Notes under the pieces: generated by a model
Databases searched by the model: none
Told to the model about the DNA's origin: nothing
Seen by the model: only the letters and a program-made list of their open reading frames with translations
Made by a program: the position numbers and the translations under genes
DNA from: an uncultured Amaricoccus sp.
GTDB taxonomy: Bacteria > Pseudomonadota > Alphaproteobacteria > Rhodobacterales > Rhodobacteraceae
Assembly: GCF_937858865.1 (NCBI RefSeq)
Contig: NZ_CALLYO010000116.1
Location: 1-15,403 of the forward strand
DNA length: 15,403 nt
Reading direction: 5' to 3'
In this document: piece after piece, positions 1 to 12,257 of the stretch
Position numbering within the stretch: position 1 is the stretch's first letter
Layout of the letters: every line of letters starts with the position of its first letter

Positions 1-991
1 TCCAGAACCAGCCGGCGAGGGTCTCACTGAGCCCGGCGGCGCGGGCGTGGCCGGGCGGGACGAGGGCGAGGGCGAGGAGGAGCGCCCCCCAGCGCAGCGT
101 GGTGCCGCGGCGGAACCAGAGGAGGACGAGGAGCGCGGCCGGCAGCGCCAGCAGCCAGCCGTCGTCCTGCAGGCGGCCCTCGGCCCCGGCGGCGCGGGCG
201 AGGCTGGAGGCGAGGGCGCGCTCGACGCCGCGGATGTCGGTGCCGTCGATGGTGGCCGCGACGGTGGCGACGTCGGCGCGGCGGGACCAGTCTGAGACCT
301 CGGCGCCGGGGTCGGGGGCGACGATCAGCGCGGCGCGGGCGCTGCCGCCGGCCGGAAAGGCGGCGATGTCGGCGGGGTCGATGCCGTCGGTGACGAAGAG
401 GACCGAACCGGGGGCCTCCTCCTCGGCGAGCAGCGTCTCGGCGAGGGCGAGGGCGGCGGAGGCGCGCCGGCCCTCATCGGGCATGATCGCGGGGTCGAGC
501 GCCTCGAGGAAGGGCAGCAGCACGGTCGGGTCGTCGGTCAGCGGCATGACGAGATGGGCGGTGCCGGCATAGGCGACGAGGCCGACCCGGCCGCCGGCGC
601 GGAGCGCGATGAGGTCGCGGACCTTCTGCTTCGCCCGCTCCAGCCGCGTCGGGGCGACGTCGGTGCCGGACATGCTCGGGCTGAGGTCGAGGGCGACGAC
701 GAGGGGCGCGGTCTCGGTGACGAAGGGCGACGGCGCCGGCCGCCAGGCCGGGCCGGCGGCGGCGAGCGTCATCAGCGCGGCGGCGCCGAGCAGGAGGTCG
801 GAGGCGTGGAGGCGGGAGCGGGCGTCGCGGCCGATGGTGAGCGCGGCGAGCAGGTGCGGGGCGATGATGTCGCCGACGGCCGGCGCCTCGGCGGCGGCGC
901 GGCGGCGGAGGAGGAGCCAGAGGCCCGCGAGCGGCAGGAGCGCGAGGAGCGCGAGGGGGCGGAGGAAGGTGAAGGCGGCGAGCGCGGTCAT
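1..991 (-). CDS. BatB-like VWA-domain membrane protein (C-terminus beyond left edge)
   Basis: The reading frame is open for 330 codons from an ATG at 991 to the left edge with no stop, so the protein is partial. Two hydrophobic segments (about residues 8-28 and 66-80) precede a von Willebrand A domain whose MIDAS motif is intact: D102-L-S104-P-S106. A third hydrophobic segment (about 284-300) and further apolar sequence follow, ending at the edge in Leu-Ala-Gly-Trp-Phe-Trp. This order matches BatB-type proteins, which often carry a TPR tail after the last membrane segment; a TPR tail here is an inference. The start overlaps the upstream VWA gene by four bases (ATGA), with a GAGG ribosome site 7 nt upstream. 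It is the last visible gene of the moxR operon. The VWA domain probably faces the periplasm and binds partner proteins through a divalent metal. Confidence 0.85.
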   Translation of the reverse strand, partial: MTALAAFTFLRPLALLALLPLAGLWLLLRRRAAAEAPAVGDIIAPHLLAALTIGRDARSRLHASDLLLGAAALMTLAAAGPAWRPAPSPFVTETAPLVVALDLSPSMSGTDVAPTRLERAKQKVRDLIALRAGGRVGLVAYAGTAHLVMPLTDDPTVLLPFLEALDPAIMPDEGRRASAALALAETLLAEEEAPGSVLFVTDGIDPADIAAFPAGGSARAALIVAPDPGAEVSDWSRRADVATVAATIDGTDIRGVERALASSLARAAGAEGRLQDDGWLLALPAALLVLLWFRRGTTLRWGALLLALALVPPGHARAAGLSETLAGWFW

Positions 992-1986
992 GCCGTCGCC
1001 TCGCGGCGGCGCGCCCGGCGGCGGCGGGCGACGGCGAGGGAGGCGGCGTAGGCGACGAGGACGAGGAGGACGAAGGCGGCGGCGGGGAGGGCGGCGAGCG
1101 GCGTGCGCGGGCGCCAGGAGGTGGTGGCGCCCTCGCGGGCGCCGGCGGCGTCGATCTGGTCGTAGATCGCCGCGAGGCCGGCGGCGTCCTCGGCGCGGTT
1201 GAAGCTGCCGCCGGTCGCCTGCGCGATCCCTTCGAGGGTGGCGATGTCGACCTTGTCGGCCTCGGCCGAGGCGTCCGGGTCGCCGACGGCGATGGTATGG
1301 ATGGTGACGCCGTTCTGCGCCGCGATGTCGGCGGCCTTGGCCGGCGCCATGCGGCTGCCGGTGTCGGTGCCGTCGGAGAGCAGGATGAGGATGCGGGCCT
1401 CGACCTTCGATGCCTCGAACGAGCGGATGGAGAGGCCGATCGCGTCGCCGAGCATGGTGTTCTGGCCGGCCATGCCGGGCTCGAGGGTGGCGAGCAGCGC
1501 GCGGGCGGCGGCGGTGTCGCGGGTGAAGGGGACGAGGACGTAGGCCGCGCTGCCGAAGACGACGAGGCCGATGCGGTCGTCGCGGCGGCCGGCGATGAAG
1601 CCGTCGAGGACCGACTTCACCCCGTCGAGGCGGGAGCCGCGGGTGCCGTCGGGCGCGGTGAAGTCGCGGGTGTGCATCGAGCCCGAGATGTCGACGGCGA
1701 GCATCACGTCGCGGGCGGCCTCGCTGCGCTCCACGGGCGCGCCGACCCACTGCGGCTGCGCGACGGTGACGAGGACGAGCGCCCAGAGCGTCCAGGCGAA
1801 GGCCATCTGGGCGCGGGTGCGCGGCAGGACGACGGCGCCCTCGCCCTTGTCGAGGCCGGCGCTCGTCGCCTCGAAGAAGGGGATGCGCACCGCCTGCACC
1901 GTCTCCCGGCGCGGCGGGGCCAGCCAGAGGACGAGGAGCGGCAGCGGCAGGGCGGCGAGCGCCCAGGGGAAGGCGAGCTCAAGCAT
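988..1986 (-). CDS. BatA-like VWA-domain membrane protein
   Basis: A 332-residue protein with hydrophobic segments at about 5-23 and 60-77, a VWA domain (about 93-270) and a final membrane segment (about 298-320) followed by an Arg-rich tail. The metal-ion-dependent adhesion site is complete: D99-I-S101-G-S103, T177 in GQNTMLGD, and D205 in LLSDGTD. BatA-type VWA proteins accompany MoxR ATPases in many bacteria and are thought to work in envelope-associated protein complexes; the substrate is unknown. The ATG at 1986 lies within the end of the DUF4381 gene (8-bp overlap) and has no convincing ribosome-binding site, so translation is probably coupled. The stop overlaps the next VWA gene as ATGA. 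Two consecutive VWA genes with intact MIDAS motifs is the usual BatA/BatB arrangement. Confidence 0.92.
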   Translation of the reverse strand: MLELAFPWALAALPLPLLVLWLAPPRRETVQAVRIPFFEATSAGLDKGEGAVVLPRTRAQMAFAWTLWALVLVTVAQPQWVGAPVERSEAARDVMLAVDISGSMHTRDFTAPDGTRGSRLDGVKSVLDGFIAGRRDDRIGLVVFGSAAYVLVPFTRDTAAARALLATLEPGMAGQNTMLGDAIGLSIRSFEASKVEARILILLSDGTDTGSRMAPAKAADIAAQNGVTIHTIAVGDPDASAEADKVDIATLEGIAQATGGSFNRAEDAAGLAAIYDQIDAAGAREGATTSWRPRTPLAALPAAAFVLLVLVAYAASLAVARRRRARRREATA

Positions 1987-2446
1987 GGCGGCGGCGGATC
2001 CAGGCGCGGGCGGCCGCGAGCGCCGCCGGCCCGTCGAAGGCGGGGACCGGGCGGTAGGGGGCGGTCGCGAGGTCGCCGGCGAGCGGGCCGAAGCCGGCGC
2101 CGCTGTCGGCGAGGAAGCGCGCCCAGCCGTCGCCGGAGAGAGGCGCGACCTCGGGGCGCGGGGCGGTGGCGAGGGCGACGCGGCGGAGCAGCGTCTGGAG
2201 CGCGGCGAGGGCGGCCGGGTCGCCGGCCTCCAGGGCGGGCGCGAGGGCGCCGAGCTCGGCGAGGGCGGCGCGGCGCCAGGCGGTGGCGCGGCGGTGGCGG
2301 AGGAAGGCCCGGAGGCCGAGGGTGAGGGCGGCGAGGAGGAGGAGGGCGAGGACGGCCCAGGCCGGGGTCGCCGGCCACATCGGGACGGGCGGCGGCTCGG
2401 CGATGTCGTCGAGCTGGTCGAGGAGGTCGACGAGGCTCTCGCCCAT
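1979..2446 (-). CDS. DUF4381 domain-containing small membrane protein
   Basis: A 155-residue protein. The N-terminal stretch has the acidic/hydrophobic start MGESLVDLLDQLDDI and a Pro-rich patch with a Trp (PPPVPMWPATPAW). A single membrane helix (about residues 29-48) is followed by a basic RHRRATAWRR segment and an Ala/Leu-rich cytoplasmic-like domain ending WIRRRHA. This architecture, placed between DUF58 and BatA-type VWA genes, is characteristic of DUF4381 proteins, which have no established biochemical activity. The ATG at 2446 overlaps the stop of the DUF58 gene (ATGA) and has a clear GGAGG 5 nt upstream. The domain name rests on length, single-helix layout and gene order rather than on a profile search. 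Confidence 0.8.
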   Translation of the reverse strand: MGESLVDLLDQLDDIAEPPPVPMWPATPAWAVLALLLLAALTLGLRAFLRHRRATAWRRAALAELGALAPALEAGDPAALAALQTLLRRVALATAPRPEVAPLSGDGWARFLADSGAGFGPLAGDLATAPYRPVPAFDGPAALAAARAWIRRRHA

Positions 2447-3393
2447 CAGCGCCTCCGCGCCGGCGCCGAAAGGGGGGCGCCGAAGAGGCGGAGGAGCTGC
2501 GGGATCGTCGGCTCGCCGGCGCTGACCGGCAGGATCGCGGCGTCGAGCCGCTCCTGCCAGGCGAGGAGCGTGGCGATGCGCCCGGAGCCGGTCCCGGCGA
2601 GGTTGCGGCGGACGCGGGCGTCGGCGAGGTCGAGTTCGACCTGCAGGCGGCCGTCGCCGACGACGATGCGGCCGCTGGCCGGGGTCTCGTGCGCCGAGGG
2701 GTCGTGGACGATGGCGAGCAGGATGTCGTTGCCGCGGGCGATGCCGGTCAGGAGGCGGAGCGTCGCCGCGCCGGCGCCGTCGAAGTCCGAGACGACGAGG
2801 AGGAGCCAGTCGTGGGTGAGGATCTCGGCCGCGCGGGCGAGGGCGGTGTCGAGGCGGCCGGCGGCGCCGGCGGCGACGGGGGCCTCGGCGGAGAGCGCGA
2901 GGTTGGCGTCGGCGATGCGGTCGAGCAGGCGCAGGACGGCCCCGCGCGAGCGGCGGGCGGGGACGGCGTCGAAGCCCTGGTCGGTGAGGACGAGGCCGCC
3001 GACGCGGTCGCCCTGGCCGAGGATGCGCCAGGCGGCGAGGGCGGCGATCTCGGCGGCGGTGACCGACTTCATGTTGAGGACGGTGCCGAAGAACATCGAC
3101 ATCCGCTGGTCGACGAGGAGGAGCGCCGGGCGGTCGCGCTCCTCGCGGGTGACGCGGACGTGGGGGGCGCCGGTGCGGGCGGTGACCTTCCAGTCGATGG
3201 CGCGCACGTCGTCGCCGGGGAGGTAGGCGCGCAGCTCCTCGAACTCGAGGCCGCGGCCGCGCAGGCGGCTGGCGCGGCGGCCGGAGAGGGCGCTGCCGAC
3301 CGGCTGGCGCGGCAGGAAGTCGAAGCCGCGCGCCCGCGCCTCGAGGCCCGCCAGGTGGGCGAGGTCGGCGTGGATGCGCGGGTCGAGGGTCAT
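2446..3393 (-). CDS. DUF58 domain-containing protein
   Basis: A 315-residue soluble protein. The DUF58 signature is clear at about residues 55-68: R-x-Y-x-P-G-D-D-V-R-x-I-D-W. A VWA-like fold follows, but its first metal-site motif is degenerate: D95-Q-R-M-S-M where intact VWA domains have DxSxS, then FFG and an MKS segment. DUF58 proteins are standard partners of MoxR ATPases; their exact role is undefined. The chosen ATG at 3393 overlaps the stop of the HAD gene (ATGA), with GAGAAG 2 nt upstream of the start. The same frame stays open back to 4095, but that part lies opposite the real HAD reading frame and is Arg/Pro-rich junk, so it is excluded. The end overlaps the DUF4381 start by four bases. 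Confidence 0.9.
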   Translation of the reverse strand: MTLDPRIHADLAHLAGLEARARGFDFLPRQPVGSALSGRRASRLRGRGLEFEELRAYLPGDDVRAIDWKVTARTGAPHVRVTREERDRPALLLVDQRMSMFFGTVLNMKSVTAAEIAALAAWRILGQGDRVGGLVLTDQGFDAVPARRSRGAVLRLLDRIADANLALSAEAPVAAGAAGRLDTALARAAEILTHDWLLLVVSDFDGAGAATLRLLTGIARGNDILLAIVHDPSAHETPASGRIVVGDGRLQVELDLADARVRRNLAGTGSGRIATLLAWQERLDAAILPVSAGEPTIPQLLRLFGAPLSAPARRR

Positions 3394-4370
3394 TGCTTCT
3401 CGAACGGGTAGATCACCTTCCAGTCGCTGGCCATGTCGATCAGGAGCCAGCCCTCGTCCGGCGCGGCGTCGAGGGCGCGGGCGAGCTGGCCGACGTGGCT
3501 GTCGCGGTCGTAGGCCCATTCGCGGGCGGCGTCGGTATGGTGGACGATGAGGCCGAGGTCGGGGCCGTCGCCGGCGGTGACGTAGTCGAGCATCTCGAAG
3601 TCGCCGTCGGAGTTGCCGAAGGCGATGACCGGGCGCTTGCCGATGTGGCGGAGGATGCCGACCGGCTTGCCGGCCTTGTCGTCGACGAAGAAGACCCCGG
3701 GCTCGCGGTCGAAGCGGGGCGGGCCGTCCTGGTCGTTGTAGGTGACCGCGATCTGCGAGCCGACGACCTGCTGCGGCGGGATGCCGTAGACCTGCTCGGC
3801 CCAGGGGCGCATGAAGTCGATGCCGCCGCCGGAGACGATCCAGGTCTCGAAGCCGTTGTCGCGCAGGTAGTCGAGCACCTCGAGCATCGGCTGGAAGACG
3901 AGGTCGGTGTAGGGCCGGTCGAAGCGGGGGTGGCGGGCGGTGGCGATCCAGTCCTTCACCAGCGCCTCGAATTCCTCGTTGGTCATGCCGGCGTGGGTGG
4001 CGGCCACGAGCTCGACGAGGCCCTGCTCGCCGGCGGCGCCGAGGGCGGCCAAGTCGCCGTCGAGCACAGCCTTGTAGGGCATCTCGTCCGCCCATTCGGG
4101 ATGGTCGGCGGCCATCGCCCTGATCCGGTCGTTCACGAACATGCCCTGGAAGTACATCGGCTGCTCGGACCAGAGGGTGCCGTCGTTGTCGAAGGTCGCG
4201 ATGCGGTCGTCGGGGGCGATGAAGCCCGGGCCGCCCTCGGCGGTGGCGGCCTGCACGAAGGCGACGATCGCCTGCTTCGTGGGGCCGTCGTTCCAGCTGG
4301 GCAGCGGGTCGTCCTGGGCGAGGGCCGGGACGGCGAGGAGGGCGGCGGCGAGGGTGGCGCGGAGGAACAT
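3390..4370 (-). CDS. Exported HAD-superfamily phosphatase-like hydrolase
   Basis: A 326-residue protein with a Sec signal peptide (residues 1-18, likely cut after A-L-A). The mature part carries all HAD motifs: motif I D61-N-D63-G-T (nucleophile and acid/base aspartates), motif II S180-G-G-G, a lysine in the DDKAGKP segment (about 230-236), and motif IV G252-N-S-D255-G-D257. This resembles the phosphoserine phosphatase-like branch of the superfamily, but the substrate cannot be read from sequence. Location is predicted periplasmic. The gene lies 14 bp after moxR; its AAGGAG ribosome site directly abuts the moxR stop codon, and its end overlaps DUF58 by four bases. It is therefore firmly inside the MoxR operon, where a HAD enzyme is not a standard member. 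Confidence 0.9.
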   Translation of the reverse strand: MFLRATLAAALLAVPALAQDDPLPSWNDGPTKQAIVAFVQAATAEGGPGFIAPDDRIATFDNDGTLWSEQPMYFQGMFVNDRIRAMAADHPEWADEMPYKAVLDGDLAALGAAGEQGLVELVAATHAGMTNEEFEALVKDWIATARHPRFDRPYTDLVFQPMLEVLDYLRDNGFETWIVSGGGIDFMRPWAEQVYGIPPQQVVGSQIAVTYNDQDGPPRFDREPGVFFVDDKAGKPVGILRHIGKRPVIAFGNSDGDFEMLDYVTAGDGPDLGLIVHHTDAAREWAYDRDSHVGQLARALDAAPDEGWLLIDMASDWKVIYPFEKQ

Positions 4371-4384
4371 GGGGCGCGGCTCCT

Positions 4385-5374
<990 letters not shown>

Positions 5375-7219: not shown

Positions 7220-8116
7220 TCAGGCCGCGCCGGACCAGTGCGCGCCCGAGGGCCCGGCGGGGAACCCGTCGGAGAGCCGCCCGCCCGGCACCCGCCCGAC
7301 GAGCGATGCGGCGAGCGCCGCGCCCGTCATCCGGCCGGCCAGCAGCTCGGCATAGTCGCGGCAGATGCCGGCGAAATCGCCGGTCTGCGGCGAGAGCCGC
7401 AGCGCCGCGACGCCCGCCGCGCGCAGCGCCTCCGCCTGCAGCGCCATGCTCGCCGTGCTCTGGCTCATCGTCTGCACGCCGTTCACCACGAGGAACTTCT
7501 GCCCGTCGAGCGTGTCGACCTCGCGCCCGTCGGGGTCCTCGCCGCAGACGAACTGGCAGCCGTCCTTGGCCCGGTCGTGCAGGCGCGCGTGGTAGCAGCG
7601 CCCGGAGATCGCCAGCGGCAGCCGGCCGTGGCCCCAGACCTCGACCGCCACCCCTGCCTCGCGCCCGGCCGCGGCCAGGACCGCGATCGAGGCGAGCGGC
7701 AGCTCGGGCGGCAGGCAGATGCGGGTTGCCCCGCGCCGCGCCAGCCAGCGGAGCGTGCTCTCGTTGTAGACGTTGACCATCGGGCCGACCCAGAAGGGCG
7801 TGCCGTCGGGGATGTGGCGCAGCGCGGTCAGGTCGTTGACCTCGACGGTCAGGCCGGCGGCCGCCAGGTCGGCGGTCAGCCGGCGCTCGCGCTTCAGCGT
7901 GACGAGCGCGAGGCTGGCCAGCGCCACCTCCTTGCCCGCCGCCTGCAGCCGCTCCACCGCCGCGGCGATCGCGTCCTGCCAGAAGGGCAGGCGCTTGGAG
8001 CAGACCCATTCGCCGATCGCCACCCGTGCGACCGGCGCCTCGGCCAGCCGGGCGTAGAAGGCGTCCACCGCCGCGGCGTCCCAGAAGAAGGCGTTCGGCC
8101 CGATCGTCAGGTCCAT
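7220..8116 (-). CDS. ubiV: UbiV, Fe-S subunit of anaerobic ubiquinone hydroxylation (U32 peptidase-like family)
   Basis: A 298-residue member of the U32 peptidase-like family. Four cysteines match the 4Fe-4S ligands described for E. coli UbiV: C39 (GEWVCS), C174 (GRCYHAR), C187 and C191 (GCQFVC). UbiU and UbiV form a complex that hydroxylates ubiquinone precursors without oxygen, with prephenate as oxygen donor in E. coli. Start choices are GTG 8128, ATG 8122 and ATG 8116. I chose 8116 because GGAG (8126-8123) then has a 6-nt spacing, the protein begins MDLTIGP like family members, and the first ligand falls at C39 as in E. coli. It starts 2 nt after the ubiU stop, or overlaps it as ATGA if 8122 is used. 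It is the last gene of the ubiTUV operon. Confidence 0.93.
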   Translation of the reverse strand: MDLTIGPNAFFWDAAAVDAFYARLAEAPVARVAIGEWVCSKRLPFWQDAIAAAVERLQAAGKEVALASLALVTLKRERRLTADLAAAGLTVEVNDLTALRHIPDGTPFWVGPMVNVYNESTLRWLARRGATRICLPPELPLASIAVLAAAGREAGVAVEVWGHGRLPLAISGRCYHARLHDRAKDGCQFVCGEDPDGREVDTLDGQKFLVVNGVQTMSQSTASMALQAEALRAAGVAALRLSPQTGDFAGICRDYAELLAGRMTGAALAASLVGRVPGGRLSDGFPAGPSGAHWSGAA

Positions 8117-8118
8117 CG

Positions 8119-9099
8119 TCATCTCCACGTCTTGGCGTAGGCGCCGGTCGTCGTGGCCTGGCCCTCGGTCAGCCGCGCCAGCGCGCCTTCGGGCAGCGGG
8201 CGGCCCGCTTCCTGCGCCTCGACGGCGGCGCGGAAGCTGCGCACGACCTGCGCGACGTAGGCGCGCGAGCGTTGCCGTCCCTCGATCTTCAGGGCCGCGA
8301 CGCCGGCACGCGCCAGCGCCGGGATGAGGCGGGTGGCGTCGAGGCTGACCGGGTCCTCGAAGATGTGCCCGGTCTCGGCGCCGGAGGTGAAGCAGCCCTT
8401 GCAGAGCGTCGGATAGGGCGCGGGGGCGTGCTTCGGCGTGCGGTGGATGGTAAAGCCGCCGAGGCGGGCGGCGAGCTCCGGGCCTTCCTCGGCATAGGCG
8501 ACGTGGCTTGCGGGCGAGCAGACGCCGTTCATGTTGGGCGAGCGGCCGGTGGCGTAGGAGGAGAGCGAGCAGCGTCCCTCGGCCATCACGCAGAGGCCGC
8601 CGAAGACGAAGACCTCGGTCTCGACGTCGATCTCGCGGTTGATCGCGGCGATCTCCTCGACCGAGAGCACGCGCGGCAGCACCACCCGGCGCACCCCGAA
8701 GGCCTCGGTGTAGAGGTTGATCGCGTCGGGGTTGGCGGCGGCGGCCTGTACCGAGAGGTGGCGGCGCAGGCCGGGATGATGCTCGGCGGCGTGGGCGAGG
8801 AGCCCGAGGTCGGCGAGGATGACCGCGTCCGCTCCCGCCGCCTCCGCATCGGCCACCGCGCGGTGCCAGAGCGGCTCGCCGCCGGCGCGCGGGAAGGTGT
8901 TGATCGCGACCAGCACGCGGGCGCCCCGGGCATGGGCGAAGGCGACGCCCCCGGCCATTTCCTCGCGGCTGAAGTTCAGGCCGGGGAAGTTGCGCGCGTT
9001 GGTCTCGTCCGCGAAGCCGCAGTAGACCGCGTGGGCGCCGGCCGTGACGGCGGCGCGGAGCGCGGCGGGGGTGCCGGCGGGGCAGACGAGTTCCATCAT
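8119..9099 (-). CDS. ubiU: UbiU, Fe-S subunit of anaerobic ubiquinone hydroxylation (U32 peptidase-like family)
   Basis: A 326-residue U32-family protein beginning (M)MELVCPAGT. Counting from the second methionine, the cysteines fall at C169, C176, C193 and C232, identical to the reported 4Fe-4S ligand numbering of E. coli UbiU. Family blocks are clear: NARNFPGLNF, AINTF, LSVQA, LPRVLS and KIEGRQRS. It works with UbiV in O2-independent hydroxylation of the quinone ring. Both ATG 9099 (ATGA overlap with the ubiT stop) and ATG 9096 are possible; GGAG at 9110-9107 serves either. An additional cysteine follows the last ligand (LCKGC, C235 in the same numbering) where E. coli has Arg. Some U32 proteins are annotated as collagenase-like peptidases, but the ligand pattern and the ubiT/ubiV neighbours decide the call. 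Confidence 0.94.
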   Translation of the reverse strand: MMELVCPAGTPAALRAAVTAGAHAVYCGFADETNARNFPGLNFSREEMAGGVAFAHARGARVLVAINTFPRAGGEPLWHRAVADAEAAGADAVILADLGLLAHAAEHHPGLRRHLSVQAAAANPDAINLYTEAFGVRRVVLPRVLSVEEIAAINREIDVETEVFVFGGLCVMAEGRCSLSSYATGRSPNMNGVCSPASHVAYAEEGPELAARLGGFTIHRTPKHAPAPYPTLCKGCFTSGAETGHIFEDPVSLDATRLIPALARAGVAALKIEGRQRSRAYVAQVVRSFRAAVEAQEAGRPLPEGALARLTEGQATTTGAYAKTWR

Positions 9100-9635
9100 G
9101 TATAGTCTCCGGTCGGCTCGGCGCGGTGCAGGGCGAGGCCGGTGATCCGCTCGGCCAGCGCGAGCGTCCGGCGCAGCGGCGCGGCGAGCGGGCCGCTCAC
9201 CGTCGCGAGCTCCTCGGTCAGGTCGATCTCGGCGTCGTCGAGCGCGTTGCGCAGCGCCAGCACCGCCTCGGTGTCGCCCTCGATGGTCAGGTCGCGCGAG
9301 AAGAAGAGCGCGTCGCCGTCCTCGGTCCCGTGCAGCATGGCGAGGAAGGCCGCGAGCGGCCCGGCGAGCCGCGCGTCGTGCGCCGGCGGCCAGGTGCGGC
9401 GGTGGGCCGAAAGGGCGCCGGTGGCCGGGCGCAGCAGCAGCAGGAACGGCAGGTCGGTGGGGTCGATCAGGAAGCTGCGCCCGGCGTGCGGGCCCATCCG
9501 GCGCAGGATCCCGGGATGTTCCCTGGCCAGGTGGCGCACCAGCAGGCCGAGCATGGCGCCGAGCGGCGCCGGCGGCAGCGGCCCGGCGGCGAGGCGGAGC
9601 GCGGGCGGAACGCGCGGGAAGTGCGATCTGGGCAT
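9096..9635 (-). CDS. ubiT: UbiT, SCP2-domain accessory factor of anaerobic ubiquinone biosynthesis
   Basis: A 179-residue protein with an SCP2 (sterol-carrier-like) lipid-binding domain spanning roughly residues 35-140, including the conserved FFSRDLTIEGDTEAVLALRN-type segment that precedes the C-terminal helix. UbiT proteins act as lipid-binding partners needed with UbiU and UbiV for anaerobic ubiquinone synthesis. The ATG at 9635 has GAGG 5 nt upstream. It is the first gene of ubiT-ubiU-ubiV, and its stop overlaps the first ubiU ATG as ATGA. A near-consensus FNR box lies 60 bp upstream of its start, consistent with expression under low oxygen. Frames that remain open further upstream, through the FNR box, are excluded. 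Confidence 0.9.
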   Translation of the reverse strand: MPRSHFPRVPPALRLAAGPLPPAPLGAMLGLLVRHLAREHPGILRRMGPHAGRSFLIDPTDLPFLLLLRPATGALSAHRRTWPPAHDARLAGPLAAFLAMLHGTEDGDALFFSRDLTIEGDTEAVLALRNALDDAEIDLTEELATVSGPLAAPLRRTLALAERITGLALHRAEPTGDYT

Positions 9636-9660
9636 CGGATCCTCGGACCGGGTGTCCCGG

Positions 9661-9666
9661 ACGGTA
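9661..9666 (-). promoter_or_regulatory. Candidate -10 element of the ubiTUV promoter
   Basis: The minus-strand hexamer TACCGT is placed so that a transcription start near 9654 would put the FNR-box centre at -41.5, the standard class II position. Three of six bases match TATAAT. Support comes mainly from the spacing. Confidence 0.4.
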
Positions 9667-9688
9667 GGCGGTCTGCGTGCCGCTGGAC

Positions 9689-9702
9689 TTGATCCTCGTC
9701 AA
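9689..9702. promoter_or_regulatory. FNR/FnrL-type binding site in the ubiT-ubiD intergenic region
   Basis: TTGAT-CCTC-GTCAA matches the FNR consensus TTGAT-N4-ATCAA with a single mismatch. Its centre (9695.5) is 60 bp from the ubiT ATG and about 63 bp from the ubiD-like translation start, so one dimer could serve both directions. Candidate -10 elements lie at the class II distance on both sides (TACCGT, minus; TACGCC at 9725-9730, plus). It fits oxygen-responsive control of an anaerobic quinone pathway. Confidence 0.75.
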
Positions 9703-9747
9703 ACCCGCGCGCTGATGCGGCTGCTACGCCGGACCGCGTCCGTGAGC

Positions 9748-9753
9748 AGGAGG
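9748..9753 (+). promoter_or_regulatory. Ribosome-binding site that marks the ubiD-like start
   Basis: A perfect AGGAGG lies 5 nt before an ATC codon at 9759, exactly where protein homology of the UbiD-family gene begins. No ATG, GTG or TTG occurs in that frame between the stop at 9690-9692 and the GTG at 9846. The site therefore points to ATC as initiator, or to a base change in an original ATG. Confidence 0.6.
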
Positions 9754-9758
9754 CCGCC

Positions 9759-11324
9759 ATCCGCAGTCTGCCGGTCTTCCCCGACCTGCGCGCCTTTCTC
9801 GGCTGGGCCGAGGGGCGCGGCGAGCTGCTGCGCCTGTCCGAGCCGGTGGCGCTGCGGCACGAGATGACGGCCGTGCAGCTCGCCTGCCTGCGCGCCGGCG
9901 GGCCGGTGCTGCGCTTCGACGCGGCGCGGCACGGCGACGGGCGGCCGGCGGCGATGCCGGTGCTGGCCAATCTCTTCGGGACGCCGGAGCGGGTGGCGGC
10001 GGGGATGGGCCTCGCGCTCGACGAGGTTCCGGCCTTCGGCGCGTTCCTCGCCGCGCTGCGCAGCCCGCCGCCGGTGGACGGGATGCGCGATGCGCTGTCG
10101 CGTTGGCCGCTGCTGAAGGCGGCGCTGGCGACGCGGCCGCGCGTCCTGCCCCGGGGGCCGGCGCAGGAGGTCGCGGCCGGGGCGGACCTGACGCGCCTGC
10201 CGGTGCAGACGCCCTGGCCGGGCGATGCCGGCCCGCTGATCACCTGGCCGGTCGTCGTCACCCGCCCGCACGGTTCGGAGGCGGCGCAGACCGGCCGCTA
10301 CAATCTCGGCGTCTACCGGGCGCAGGTGCTCGGGCCGGACCGGCTGATCCTGCGCTGGCTCGCGCATCGCGGCGGCGCCGCGCATGCCCGCGGCTGGGCG
10401 GCGGCGGGCGAGCCGATGCCGGTGGCGGTGGTGCTCGGCGCCGATCCGGCGACGCTCCTCTCCGCCGCGCTGCCGCTGCCCGAGACGGTGTCGGAGCTCT
10501 CCTTCTCCGGCGTGCTGCGCGGCAGCCGGACCGAGGTGGCGCCGGCGCGCAGCGTGCCGCTGATGGTGCCCGCCCACGCCGAGATCGTGATCGAGGGCTG
10601 GGTGCATCCCGGCGAGACGGCGCCGGAAGGGCCGTTCGGCGACCATACCGGCTATTACAACGCTGTGGAGCCCTTCCCGGTGATGCGGGTCTCGGCGATC
10701 ACCGAGCGCCGCGATCCGCTCTATCTCACCACGGTCACCGGGCGCCCGCCGGACGAGCCCGCGGTGATCGGCGAGGTGTTCAACACGCTCGCGCTGCCGC
10801 TGATCCGCGCCCAGATCCCGGAGCTGCGCGACCTCTGGCTGCCGCCGGCCGCCTGCTCCTACCGGATCGCGGTGGTGCAGATCGCCAAACGCTACCCGGG
10901 CCAGGCGCGGCGGGTGATGCTGGCGCTCTGGGGGATGCTGGCGCAATTCTCCTACACCAAGATGATCGTGGTGGTGGACGAGGACATCGACCCGCGCGAC
11001 TGGGACGACGTCGCCTGGGCGATGTCGACGCGGATGGATCCGGCGCGGGACGTGGTGGTGCTCGACGGCACGCCGATGGACTATCTCGATTTCGCCAGCC
11101 CGCGCGCCGGGCTGGCCGGCAAGCTCGGCATCGACGCGACGACCAAGATCGGCGCCGAGACCGAGCGGGAATGGGGAAGGGTGATGGCGCTCGACCCCGC
11201 GCACGAGGCCCGCGCGGCCGAGATCCTGGCGCGGCACCTGCCGGGCAGCGGGGCGGGGCAAGCGCGCGCCGACGATCCGCGGCGTCTCCGGCGCGCGGAG
11301 ACGGCCGGTCCCGCTTCGGTCTGA
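9759..11324 (+). CDS. ubiD: UbiD-family prFMN-dependent decarboxylase, apparent ATC start
   Basis: A protein of 521 residues if read from ATC 9759, or 492 from GTG 9846. The reading before 9846 (xRSLPVFPDLRAFLGWAEG, then RGELLRL) is the normal N-terminus of the family, so the GTG start would be truncated. UbiD hallmarks are present: NLGVYRAQV with RWLAHRGGAAH (prFMN/metal-binding half), and the E-rich catalytic block IEGWVHPGE...EGPFGDHTGYY. The family decarboxylates aromatic or unsaturated acids with prenylated FMN; UbiD proper acts on 3-polyprenyl-4-hydroxybenzoate. Divergence from ubiTUV across a shared FNR box suggests the ubiquinone role, but other UbiD-family substrates are not excluded, and no UbiX flavin prenyltransferase is in the window. 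The stop lies 18 bp from the end of the convergent LysR gene. Confidence 0.85.
   Translation: MRSLPVFPDLRAFLGWAEGRGELLRLSEPVALRHEMTAVQLACLRAGGPVLRFDAARHGDGRPAAMPVLANLFGTPERVAAGMGLALDEVPAFGAFLAALRSPPPVDGMRDALSRWPLLKAALATRPRVLPRGPAQEVAAGADLTRLPVQTPWPGDAGPLITWPVVVTRPHGSEAAQTGRYNLGVYRAQVLGPDRLILRWLAHRGGAAHARGWAAAGEPMPVAVVLGADPATLLSAALPLPETVSELSFSGVLRGSRTEVAPARSVPLMVPAHAEIVIEGWVHPGETAPEGPFGDHTGYYNAVEPFPVMRVSAITERRDPLYLTTVTGRPPDEPAVIGEVFNTLALPLIRAQIPELRDLWLPPAACSYRIAVVQIAKRYPGQARRVMLALWGMLAQFSYTKMIVVVDEDIDPRDWDDVAWAMSTRMDPARDVVVLDGTPMDYLDFASPRAGLAGKLGIDATTKIGAETEREWGRVMALDPAHEARAAEILARHLPGSGAGQARADDPRRLRRAETAGPASV
11283..11303. terminator. Hairpin in the 3' end of the ubiD-like gene
   Basis: An 8-bp perfect inverted repeat (CGTCTCCG and CGGAGACG, loop GCGCG) lies inside the last 14 codons of the ubiD-like gene and about 40 bp past the end of the convergent LysR gene. 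It could attenuate transcription from either side. There is no T-run, so the call is tentative. Confidence 0.3.
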
Positions 11325-11342: not shown

Positions 11343-12257
11343 CTACCGGCCGGTGAAGTCCGCCTGGGCTTCGCGGACCGCCTCGGTCAGGAAGTCGGCG
11401 GCGGCGCGGACGCGGGCGACGTCGCGCAGGTTCTCGTGGATCGCCAGCCAGTAGGAGCGGACGGTGCAGAGCTTCGGCAGGACGCGGACGAGGCCGCGGC
11501 CGCGGGTGAGATAGTCGTGCAGCGCGCCGATGCCGGCGCCGGCGCCGACCGCCTCGACCTGCCCGATGGCGCTGGTGATCTCGACCGACGAGCGCCAGCC
11601 GCGCAGGAACTCGGCCGCGTAGTTGAGGGCGGGCGCGGCGATCAGATCCTCGACGTAGCCGACGAGGCGGTGGCGGGCGAGGTCGGCCGGCTCCACCGGT
11701 GCGGGATGGGCGGCGAGGTAGGCGGGGGAGGCGTAGAGGCCGAGGCTGTAGTCGGTCAGCTTGCGGGCGACGAGCCGGCCCTTCTCGGGGCGCCCCACCA
11801 TCACCGCGAGGTCGGCCTCGCGGCGGGAGAGGGAGAAGCCGCGCGGGGTCGGGACGAGCTGGACGGTCAGGTCCGGGTGCCGGTCGGCGAGGCGGGCAAG
11901 GCGCGGGGCGAGGAAGCCGACGCCGAAGCCGTCCGGGGCGCCGATCCGCACGACGCCGGCGGCAGCCGCCCCGGCGCCCTGCAGCCGGGCCTGGACGGCG
12001 AGCATCTCGGTCTCCACCCGCTCGAGCGTCTCGAGGAGCGCCTGGCCAGCGTCGGTCAGCTCCGAGCCGTGGGTGCGGCGGACGAGCAGCTTGGCGCCGA
12101 GCGCGGCCTCGAGGGCGGCGACGCGGCGGGAGAGGGTCGCCTGGTTGACGCCGAGCCTGCGCGACGCGCCGAGCATCTGGCCGGCGCGGGCGACGGCGAG
12201 GAACATGCGGGTGTCGTCCCAGTCGAGCCGGCCCGGTGCGAATGCGCCTTCGTGCAT
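11343..12257 (-). CDS. LysR-family transcriptional regulator, probable regulator of mmsA
   Basis: A 304-residue protein with an N-terminal winged helix-turn-helix (about residues 14-72: [32 protein letters not shown], then [15 protein letters not shown]) and a periplasmic-binding-protein-like effector domain (about 95-300). The substrate-binding part has the usual [10 protein letters not shown] start and a YASPAYL strand. The ATG at 12257 has GAGG 7 nt upstream. It is divergent from mmsA across 76 bp, the classic arrangement in which a LysR regulator controls the adjacent target and its own gene. The inducer is probably an intermediate of valine or inositol degradation; that is inference from context. 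Confidence 0.92.

Follow-up and report, generated by a model that had tools for sequence, protein, structure and literature searches.

One FNR/FnrL-type box lying between ubiT and ubiD is, with a probability that we put at about 0.87, an operator shared by two divergent class II promoters, one of ubiTUV and the other of ubiD. That a single box goes here with two class II promoters is well supported by sequence comparison, which covers the identity of the flanking genes, the conservation of the intergenic region and several control loci. The window analyzed is the whole contig G000:C116 of 15,403 bases, part of an assembly of 3.62 Mb that is 92.6% complete and consists of 651 contigs. It represents one more member of a known FnrL-controlled arrangement, to which our comparison adds the precise two-sided class II geometry, an asymmetry between the two promoters and a probable non-AUG start of ubiD.

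Loci and genomes compared

Genome contigs were scanned with UbiU, and of 462 confirmed relatives the best 80 were retained; by title, these are mostly Rhodobacteraceae/Rhodobacterales, with Hoeflea, Stappia, Roseibium and a MAG labelled Acidovorax also represented. A UbiD match adjoins ubiT in 76 of these best 80. In two of the remaining four (L038 and L054) the contig stops on that side of ubiT, and in the other two (L052 and L094) the available flank shows no UbiD. L064 and L107 were dropped from the 76 because their best UbiD match starts far from the gene start, and by eye their promoter layout is like that of the other divergons. The 87 measured loci thus comprise 74 relatives and 13 loci from the family of the window (the window is one of them, and some coincide with contigs of named loci); removal of near-duplicates at 85% identity left 80 non-redundant loci, the window included. 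Loci were anchored on the box centre alone, with no further alignment. In the family sample of 149 genomes, UbiT exceeds the cut-off in 30. The UbiD match is short in L049 (the first 212 residues only) and split in two in L064 and L107, ubiTUV being otherwise normal in these loci; in L086 the contig ends within the UbiD match.

The box, the promoters and the flanking genes

Table 1. Features of the region between and around ubiT and ubiD in the window
Feature	Position	Strand	Basis
ubiV, O2-independent hydroxylation	7220..8128	minus	NF047965, 344 bits (cut-off 275)
ubiU, O2-independent hydroxylation	8119..9105	minus	NF047963, 499.8 bits (cut-off 440)
ubiT, SCP2-domain accessory factor, O2-independent ubiquinone synthesis	9096..9635	minus	NF047962, 82.8 bits (cut-off 46.9)
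ubiT Shine-Dalgarno, GAGGA	9640..9644	minus	sequence
Predicted ubiTUV +1	9654	minus	inferred from the -41.5 position of the box centre; column has A in 47% of 80 loci
ubiT promoter -10, TACCGT at -12..-7	9661..9666	minus	TA at this offset in 72/80 non-redundant loci
FNR/FnrL-type box TTGATCCTCGTCAA, common to both promoters	9689..9702		centre 9695.5; motif scan and divergon comparison
Extended -10 of ubiD promoter, TGcTACGCC	9722..9730	plus	TG at -15/-14, TACGCC at -12..-7
Predicted ubiD +1	9737	plus	inferred from box centre at -41.5
ubiD Shine-Dalgarno, AGGAGG	9748..9753	plus	5 nt before ATC 9759
Probable non-canonical ubiD start, ATC	9759..9761	plus	aligns with ATG/GTG/TTG starts of relatives
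ubiD, UbiD-family 4-hydroxy-3-polyprenylbenzoate decarboxylase	9759..11324	plus	TIGR00148, 428 bits, over cut-off

A preliminary description, made from the sequence of the window, had placed ubiTUV and a ubiD homologue on the two sides of a box one mismatch away from the FNR consensus, and the motif scan and profile searches bear this out. The box TTGATCCTCGTCAA has no mismatch to TTGATNNNNRTCAA and one to TTGATNNNNATCAA, and it is the sole match in the window with fewer than two mismatches to the motif. The three minus-strand products all exceed the NCBIfam equivalog cut-offs, so that UbiT, UbiU and UbiV of the O2-independent ubiquinone pathway occur together, and a UbiD-family decarboxylase is encoded on the plus strand. 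The same description had derived transcription starts at 9654 (minus) and 9737 (plus) from a class II position of the box; the arithmetic from the box centre is correct, and both of the hexamers it named, TACCGT (9666-9661, minus) and TACGCC (9725-9730, plus), lie exactly at -12 to -7 on their sides. Two features had escaped it: the extended TG at 9722-9723 that precedes TACGCC on the plus strand, and the lack of an in-frame ATG, GTG or TTG start near the 5' end of ubiD.

Besides ubiD, no PF01977 gene was found in the assembly. The product of ubiD contains the domains PF01977, PF20695 and PF20696, the substrate being predicted by family; the best NCBIfam model, NF008175, scored 519 bits vs. 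a cut-off of 788 with a query short of the first 29 residues. A match to UbiX (prFMN cofactor) is located on another contig than ubiD (G000:C544:6519-7058). In 65 of the 69 relatives with enough flank a ubiX match begins less than 600 bases past ubiD, and in the genome of the window the two are unlinked; no box better than three mismatches was detected for this unlinked ubiX in 400 bases.

As for the wider neighborhood, a convergent LysR gene (11343-12257, minus) adjoins ubiD, and positions 988-5374 (minus) are occupied by a cluster of genes for a VWA-domain protein, a DUF58 protein and an AAA-type ATPase, which we take to be MoxR-like. Elsewhere in the assembly, two more FNR-type boxes are present on contig G000:C575 (4539-4552 and 4673-4686), near genes of an FtrB-like regulator and an MFS transporter; the same contig carries the FixK-like gene considered below.

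Conservation of the two-sided geometry

Comparison of this intergenic region in relatives, a check that the preliminary description had recommended, revealed the -10 TA at class II distance on each side in about 90% of the 80 non-redundant divergons. TA occupies exactly -12/-11 (T at offset 30 from the box centre) in 72 loci on the ubiT side, in 71 on the ubiD side and in 67 on both; at other offsets (29 and 31 set aside) it was found in 0.8 of 80 loci on average and in 5 of 80 at most. TA is missing from the exact offset in 8 of the 80 loci on the ubiT side and in 9 on the ubiD side. The conserved TA fixes the position of the -10 element, not of +1, on each side. At the predicted +1, A is favoured (47 and 49% of the 80 loci on the two sides), and in the window this base is C on both strands. 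The two promoters are not alike: an extended -10 TG at -15/-14 is seen in 61 of the 80 ubiD-side promoters vs. 9 of 80 on the ubiT side. The columns between the box and the -10 elements are mostly near background, the exceptions being this TG and a T-rich pair immediately next to the box. In L045, L046, L053, L061, L100, L101, L104 and L108, belonging to Paracoccus/Pseudogemmobacter, the ATG of ubiT, as assigned by the chosen rule, coincides exactly with the predicted +1; the ubiT mRNA of the Paracoccus group may therefore be leaderless.

Loci with ubiTUV but no high-identity ubiD found beside it provide a control. In L052 and L094 the box and the exact TA on the ubiT side are retained, and on the other side GA and TG stand at this offset. 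A second, more distant type of ubiTUV occurs in 17 of the 149 family genomes (L013, L015-L026, L028-L031), none of which has a high-identity UbiD. A box within two mismatches is present in 9 of these 17 loci and absent at that threshold from the other 8; among the nine, the exact TA is found six times on the ubiT side and once on the other side. Thus, judging by these loci, each promoter tends to accompany the gene that it faces. Upstream of ubiT in the 17 loci, the unannotated open frames did not reveal a common divergent gene that could encode a replacement decarboxylase. One of these genomes (G138) has a UbiD-like match of 32% identity.

All 13 intact UbiD genes of the 149 family genomes (at least 65% identity, near full length) adjoin ubiT. 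Three genomes without a UbiT match have a UbiD of about 51-53% identity, and no box better than three mismatches was found upstream of it; these proteins are probably not orthologues, which makes them a weak control. The remaining UbiD-like matches have 30-37% identity. In L159 (G013), a genome with no UbiT match, the UbiD match is broken into three pieces, of which the last lies in another frame; the box TTGACCAACGTCAA persists there 68 bases upstream, and the start column reads ATC.

With regard to close relatives that keep the gene order, in which the preliminary description had suggested looking for loss of the motif, the comparison reaches the family level only, where the box is conserved; in ten congeners neither UbiU nor an orthologous UbiD was found, and therefore conservation of the divergon cannot be judged within the genus. 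Among the 11 genomes of the genus searches, that of the window is the only one with UbiU and the only one without FnrL over the cut-off. Since UbiU is carried by none of the ten other genomes, contamination of the MAG was considered; it was rejected, as the contig looks native. The neighboring AAA-ATPase is 85 and 77% identical to proteins of two congeners, and the tetranucleotide correlation of the contig with other pieces of the same genome is 0.993, the next highest value for the other loci compared being 0.972.

The start codon of ubiD

In the window, AUC 9759 is the probable start of ubiD translation. From the TGA at 9690, located inside the box, up to the GTG at 9846 there is no in-frame ATG, GTG or TTG. 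In the start column of the 87 loci a canonical codon is present in 49; a further 18 have a canonical codon 1-8 codons upstream, where it sits on the predicted transcript; 18, including the window, have only ATT (10), ATC (7) or ATA (1), hereinafter AUH; and two have something else. The 17 AUH-only loci besides the window are L014, L027, L039, L063, L071, L074, L078, L079, L082, L083, L092, L093, L095, L099, L102, L110 and L111. A Shine-Dalgarno match of at least four bases with a spacing of 5-8 nt was found in 17 of the 18, and their 5' leader lengths fall equally into the three frames (6, 6, 6), which indicates that the region upstream of the AUH codon is not coding. Placed on the UbiU tree (a quick method, 80 rows), the start-codon label requires 9 changes vs. 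an average of 16.5 for shuffled labels, so that AUH starts are clustered on the tree; the starred branches force at least two of the nine changes. Shine-Dalgarno matches of six or more bases occur in 6 of 18 AUH loci vs. 3 of 49 loci (Fisher p 0.009, Mann-Whitney p 0.05, the rows being related), which is no more than suggestive of a stronger Shine-Dalgarno sequence offsetting the AUH start.

The codons AUC, AUU and AUA are very rare as bacterial starts; infC and pcnB are bacterial genes starting at AUU. Like these, ubiD combines the absence of a canonical start in reach with a properly spaced Shine-Dalgarno sequence. Unlike them, it encodes a metabolic enzyme, and its start codon alternates between ATG/GTG/TTG and ATT/ATC/ATA among relatives. 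As a tentative reading, to which we give somewhat less than even odds, ubiD would start at AUC, AUU or AUA in the window and in at least 17 further loci, the weak, IF3-sensitive start would keep UbiD low relative to UbiTUV and so offset the matched promoters, and the codon would have been switched several times; the throttling role of the AUH codon is a guess. Among the papers listed by a literature search on AUU/AUC starts in Rhodobacter or of ubiD, we recognised none as relevant. If true, such a start would make ubiD a rare metabolic gene of this kind, and one present in culturable species.

Proposed mechanism

When oxygen falls, a dimer of the FNR family (FnrL by homology, perhaps together with or replaced by a FixK/CrpK-type relative) would bind TTGATCCTCGTCAA and contact RNA polymerase on either side at -41.5. 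Transcription in the minus direction would supply UbiT, UbiU and UbiV for ring hydroxylation without O2, and in the plus direction UbiD for ring decarboxylation without O2; these four proteins would between them make up the anaerobic branch of the ubiquinone pathway. The ubiT promoter with its bare -10 should depend strongly on the activator, and the ubiD promoter with its extended -10 should keep a basal level, the message being translated probably from the AUC codon.

Alternative readings

A chance match in a GC-rich genome was considered as an origin of the box and excluded. With up to two mismatches allowed, the motif does match seven times in the window, and 9 of 200 shuffles reach that number; the box, on the other hand, fits TTGAY-N4-RTCAA exactly, a pattern with seven sites in the 3.62 Mb assembly, TTGATCCTCGTCAA among them, vs. 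one site for the reversed control pattern. About 2e-4 such sites would be expected per 123-bp intergenic region (arithmetic from the seven per assembly). Moreover, the position of the box is fixed across the 87 divergon loci, in 77 of which, the window included, the best box matches this pattern, with 10 deviating, so that chance is practically negligible as an explanation. The box might also serve mainly ubiTUV, ubiD having its own constitutive extended -10 promoter that is little changed by FnrL. The prevalence of the extended TG on the ubiD side agrees with this, as do several data on R. capsulatus, whose loci L058 and L059 have as their box the same 14-mer, TTGATCAATATCAA, that is given as the ubiD site in a published RNA-seq listing: there, ubiD shows no differential expression dependent on FnrL (PMC4634722); it is about twofold up in photosynthesis; and it is reported to be expressed and functional both aerobically and anaerobically (PMC10626278). 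Against this, the TA on the ubiD side keeps the class II distance just as strictly, which would be needless for a free-standing promoter, and RSP0467-8 is given as FnrL-activated in R. sphaeroides (PMC2908626). We regard service to ubiTUV mainly as rather unlikely. Co-activation of both units by a single FnrL dimer, as envisaged in the preliminary description, is supported by the -10 TA at class II distance on both sides and by the '+' sign of the R. sphaeroides site for both units; the reservations are that ubiD is unchanged in R. capsulatus, that the extended -10 suggests a basal promoter, and that no FnrL is recognisable in the assembly.

As to the last point, no protein of the assembly exceeds the FnrL cut-off; the best, a FixK-like protein encoded on C575, scored 110 bits vs. 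a cut-off of 300. The acting regulator in this organism might hence be a FixK/CrpK-type or Dnr-type relative instead of FnrL. FixK/CrpK-type regulators may act at this site too; in R. sphaeroides, CrpK binds this interval, with both operons marked '+' (PMC4263372), and Dufour et al. computationally put RSP0465-6 in the DNR regulon (PMC2908626). Nevertheless, 18 of 21 genomes from the family sample have FnrL over the cut-off, as do all ten congeners searched (one with a stop inside the match), and given this frequency and the incompleteness of the assembly, a gap is the likely cause of the missing FnrL; replacement of FnrL by such a relative is therefore doubtful, though worth keeping in mind, and we retain FnrL as the presumed activator of the shared operator. 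Finally, translation of ubiD could begin at a canonical codon elsewhere, far upstream or at GTG 9846. The general rarity of AUH starts speaks for this, as do those 18 loci with a canonical codon slightly upstream, 8 of which have ATC or ATT in the start column. However, in the window the upstream frame is free of canonical codons back to the stop inside the box, GTG 9846 would cost 29 residues common to relatives, AGGAGG is properly placed before the ATC, and the 17 further AUH-only loci are alike in Shine-Dalgarno spacing and leader frames. A canonical start is thus quite unlikely, and AUC 9759 is the preferred one.

Comparison with known systems

For R. sphaeroides, others have demonstrated that FnrL binds the orthologous box and that both units are under '+' regulation: a single FnrL ChIP-chip peak, TTGATgtagGTCAA, was assigned to RSP0466-4 (+) and RSP0467-8, i.e., ubiD (+), and RSP0465 and RSP0466 were named as experimentally confirmed FnrL targets (Dufour et al., 2010, PMC2908626). 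The latter two are labelled there as a peptidase U32 and a putative lipid carrier; by our own identification they match UbiU and UbiT. The box in the divergon of the family genome G051 (L005) is identical to TTGATgtagGTCAA. As in the window, one box lies between two transcription units, and in R. sphaeroides FnrL is bound to it in vivo. The accessible text of PMC2908626 does not tie the site to the O2-independent ubiquinone pathway, which was named later, nor does it use the term class II, and a further difference is that ubiX does not adjoin ubiD in the genome of the window. Our comparison thus joins two literatures: one on the FnrL regulon as of 2010, which included genes for a U32 peptidase and a lipid carrier of then unknown role, and one on ubiTUV, discovered later.

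In many Rhodobacteraceae, then, oxygen-free decarboxylation and hydroxylation of the ubiquinone ring appear to be placed under one switch. This fits what is known of R. capsulatus, where knockouts of ubiD-X and ubiU-V grow aerobically and fail anaerobically because UbiN performs the decarboxylative hydroxylation in the presence of oxygen (PMC10626278), UbiD-X being needed only without it. The question of how the ring is decarboxylated anaerobically is thereby sharpened for those relatives whose ubiTUV is of the second type and which lack a high-identity UbiD.

FNR sites upstream of ubiTUV have been described across Pseudomonadota, where the authors regard the role of FNR as formally demonstrated in E. 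coli and P. aeruginosa alone (PMC11707229); FNR-type activation of ubiTUV is common to that survey and the window, and the term ubiD is absent from its text. The divergent ubiUV and ubiT operons of E. coli, also activated by Fnr, possess two sites, F1 for ubiUV and F2 for ubiT (PMC10470549), unlike the one box of the window. The conserved two-sided class II layout of the ubiT/ubiD divergon was not found in print by our search of accessible literature. The same architecture is known from nirS/nosR2 and hemA3/dnrE of Dinoroseobacter shibae, in which one Fnr/Dnr box lies at -39.5/-41.5 of two divergent promoters; these pairs differ in comprising denitrification and haem genes, in the motif (TTAAC-N4-GTCAA) and in being regulated by FnrL plus Dnr (PMC5398030). 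Considering the FnrL site of R. sphaeroides and these divergent pairs of D. shibae, neither the regulation nor the architecture of the ubiT/ubiD divergon is new in kind.
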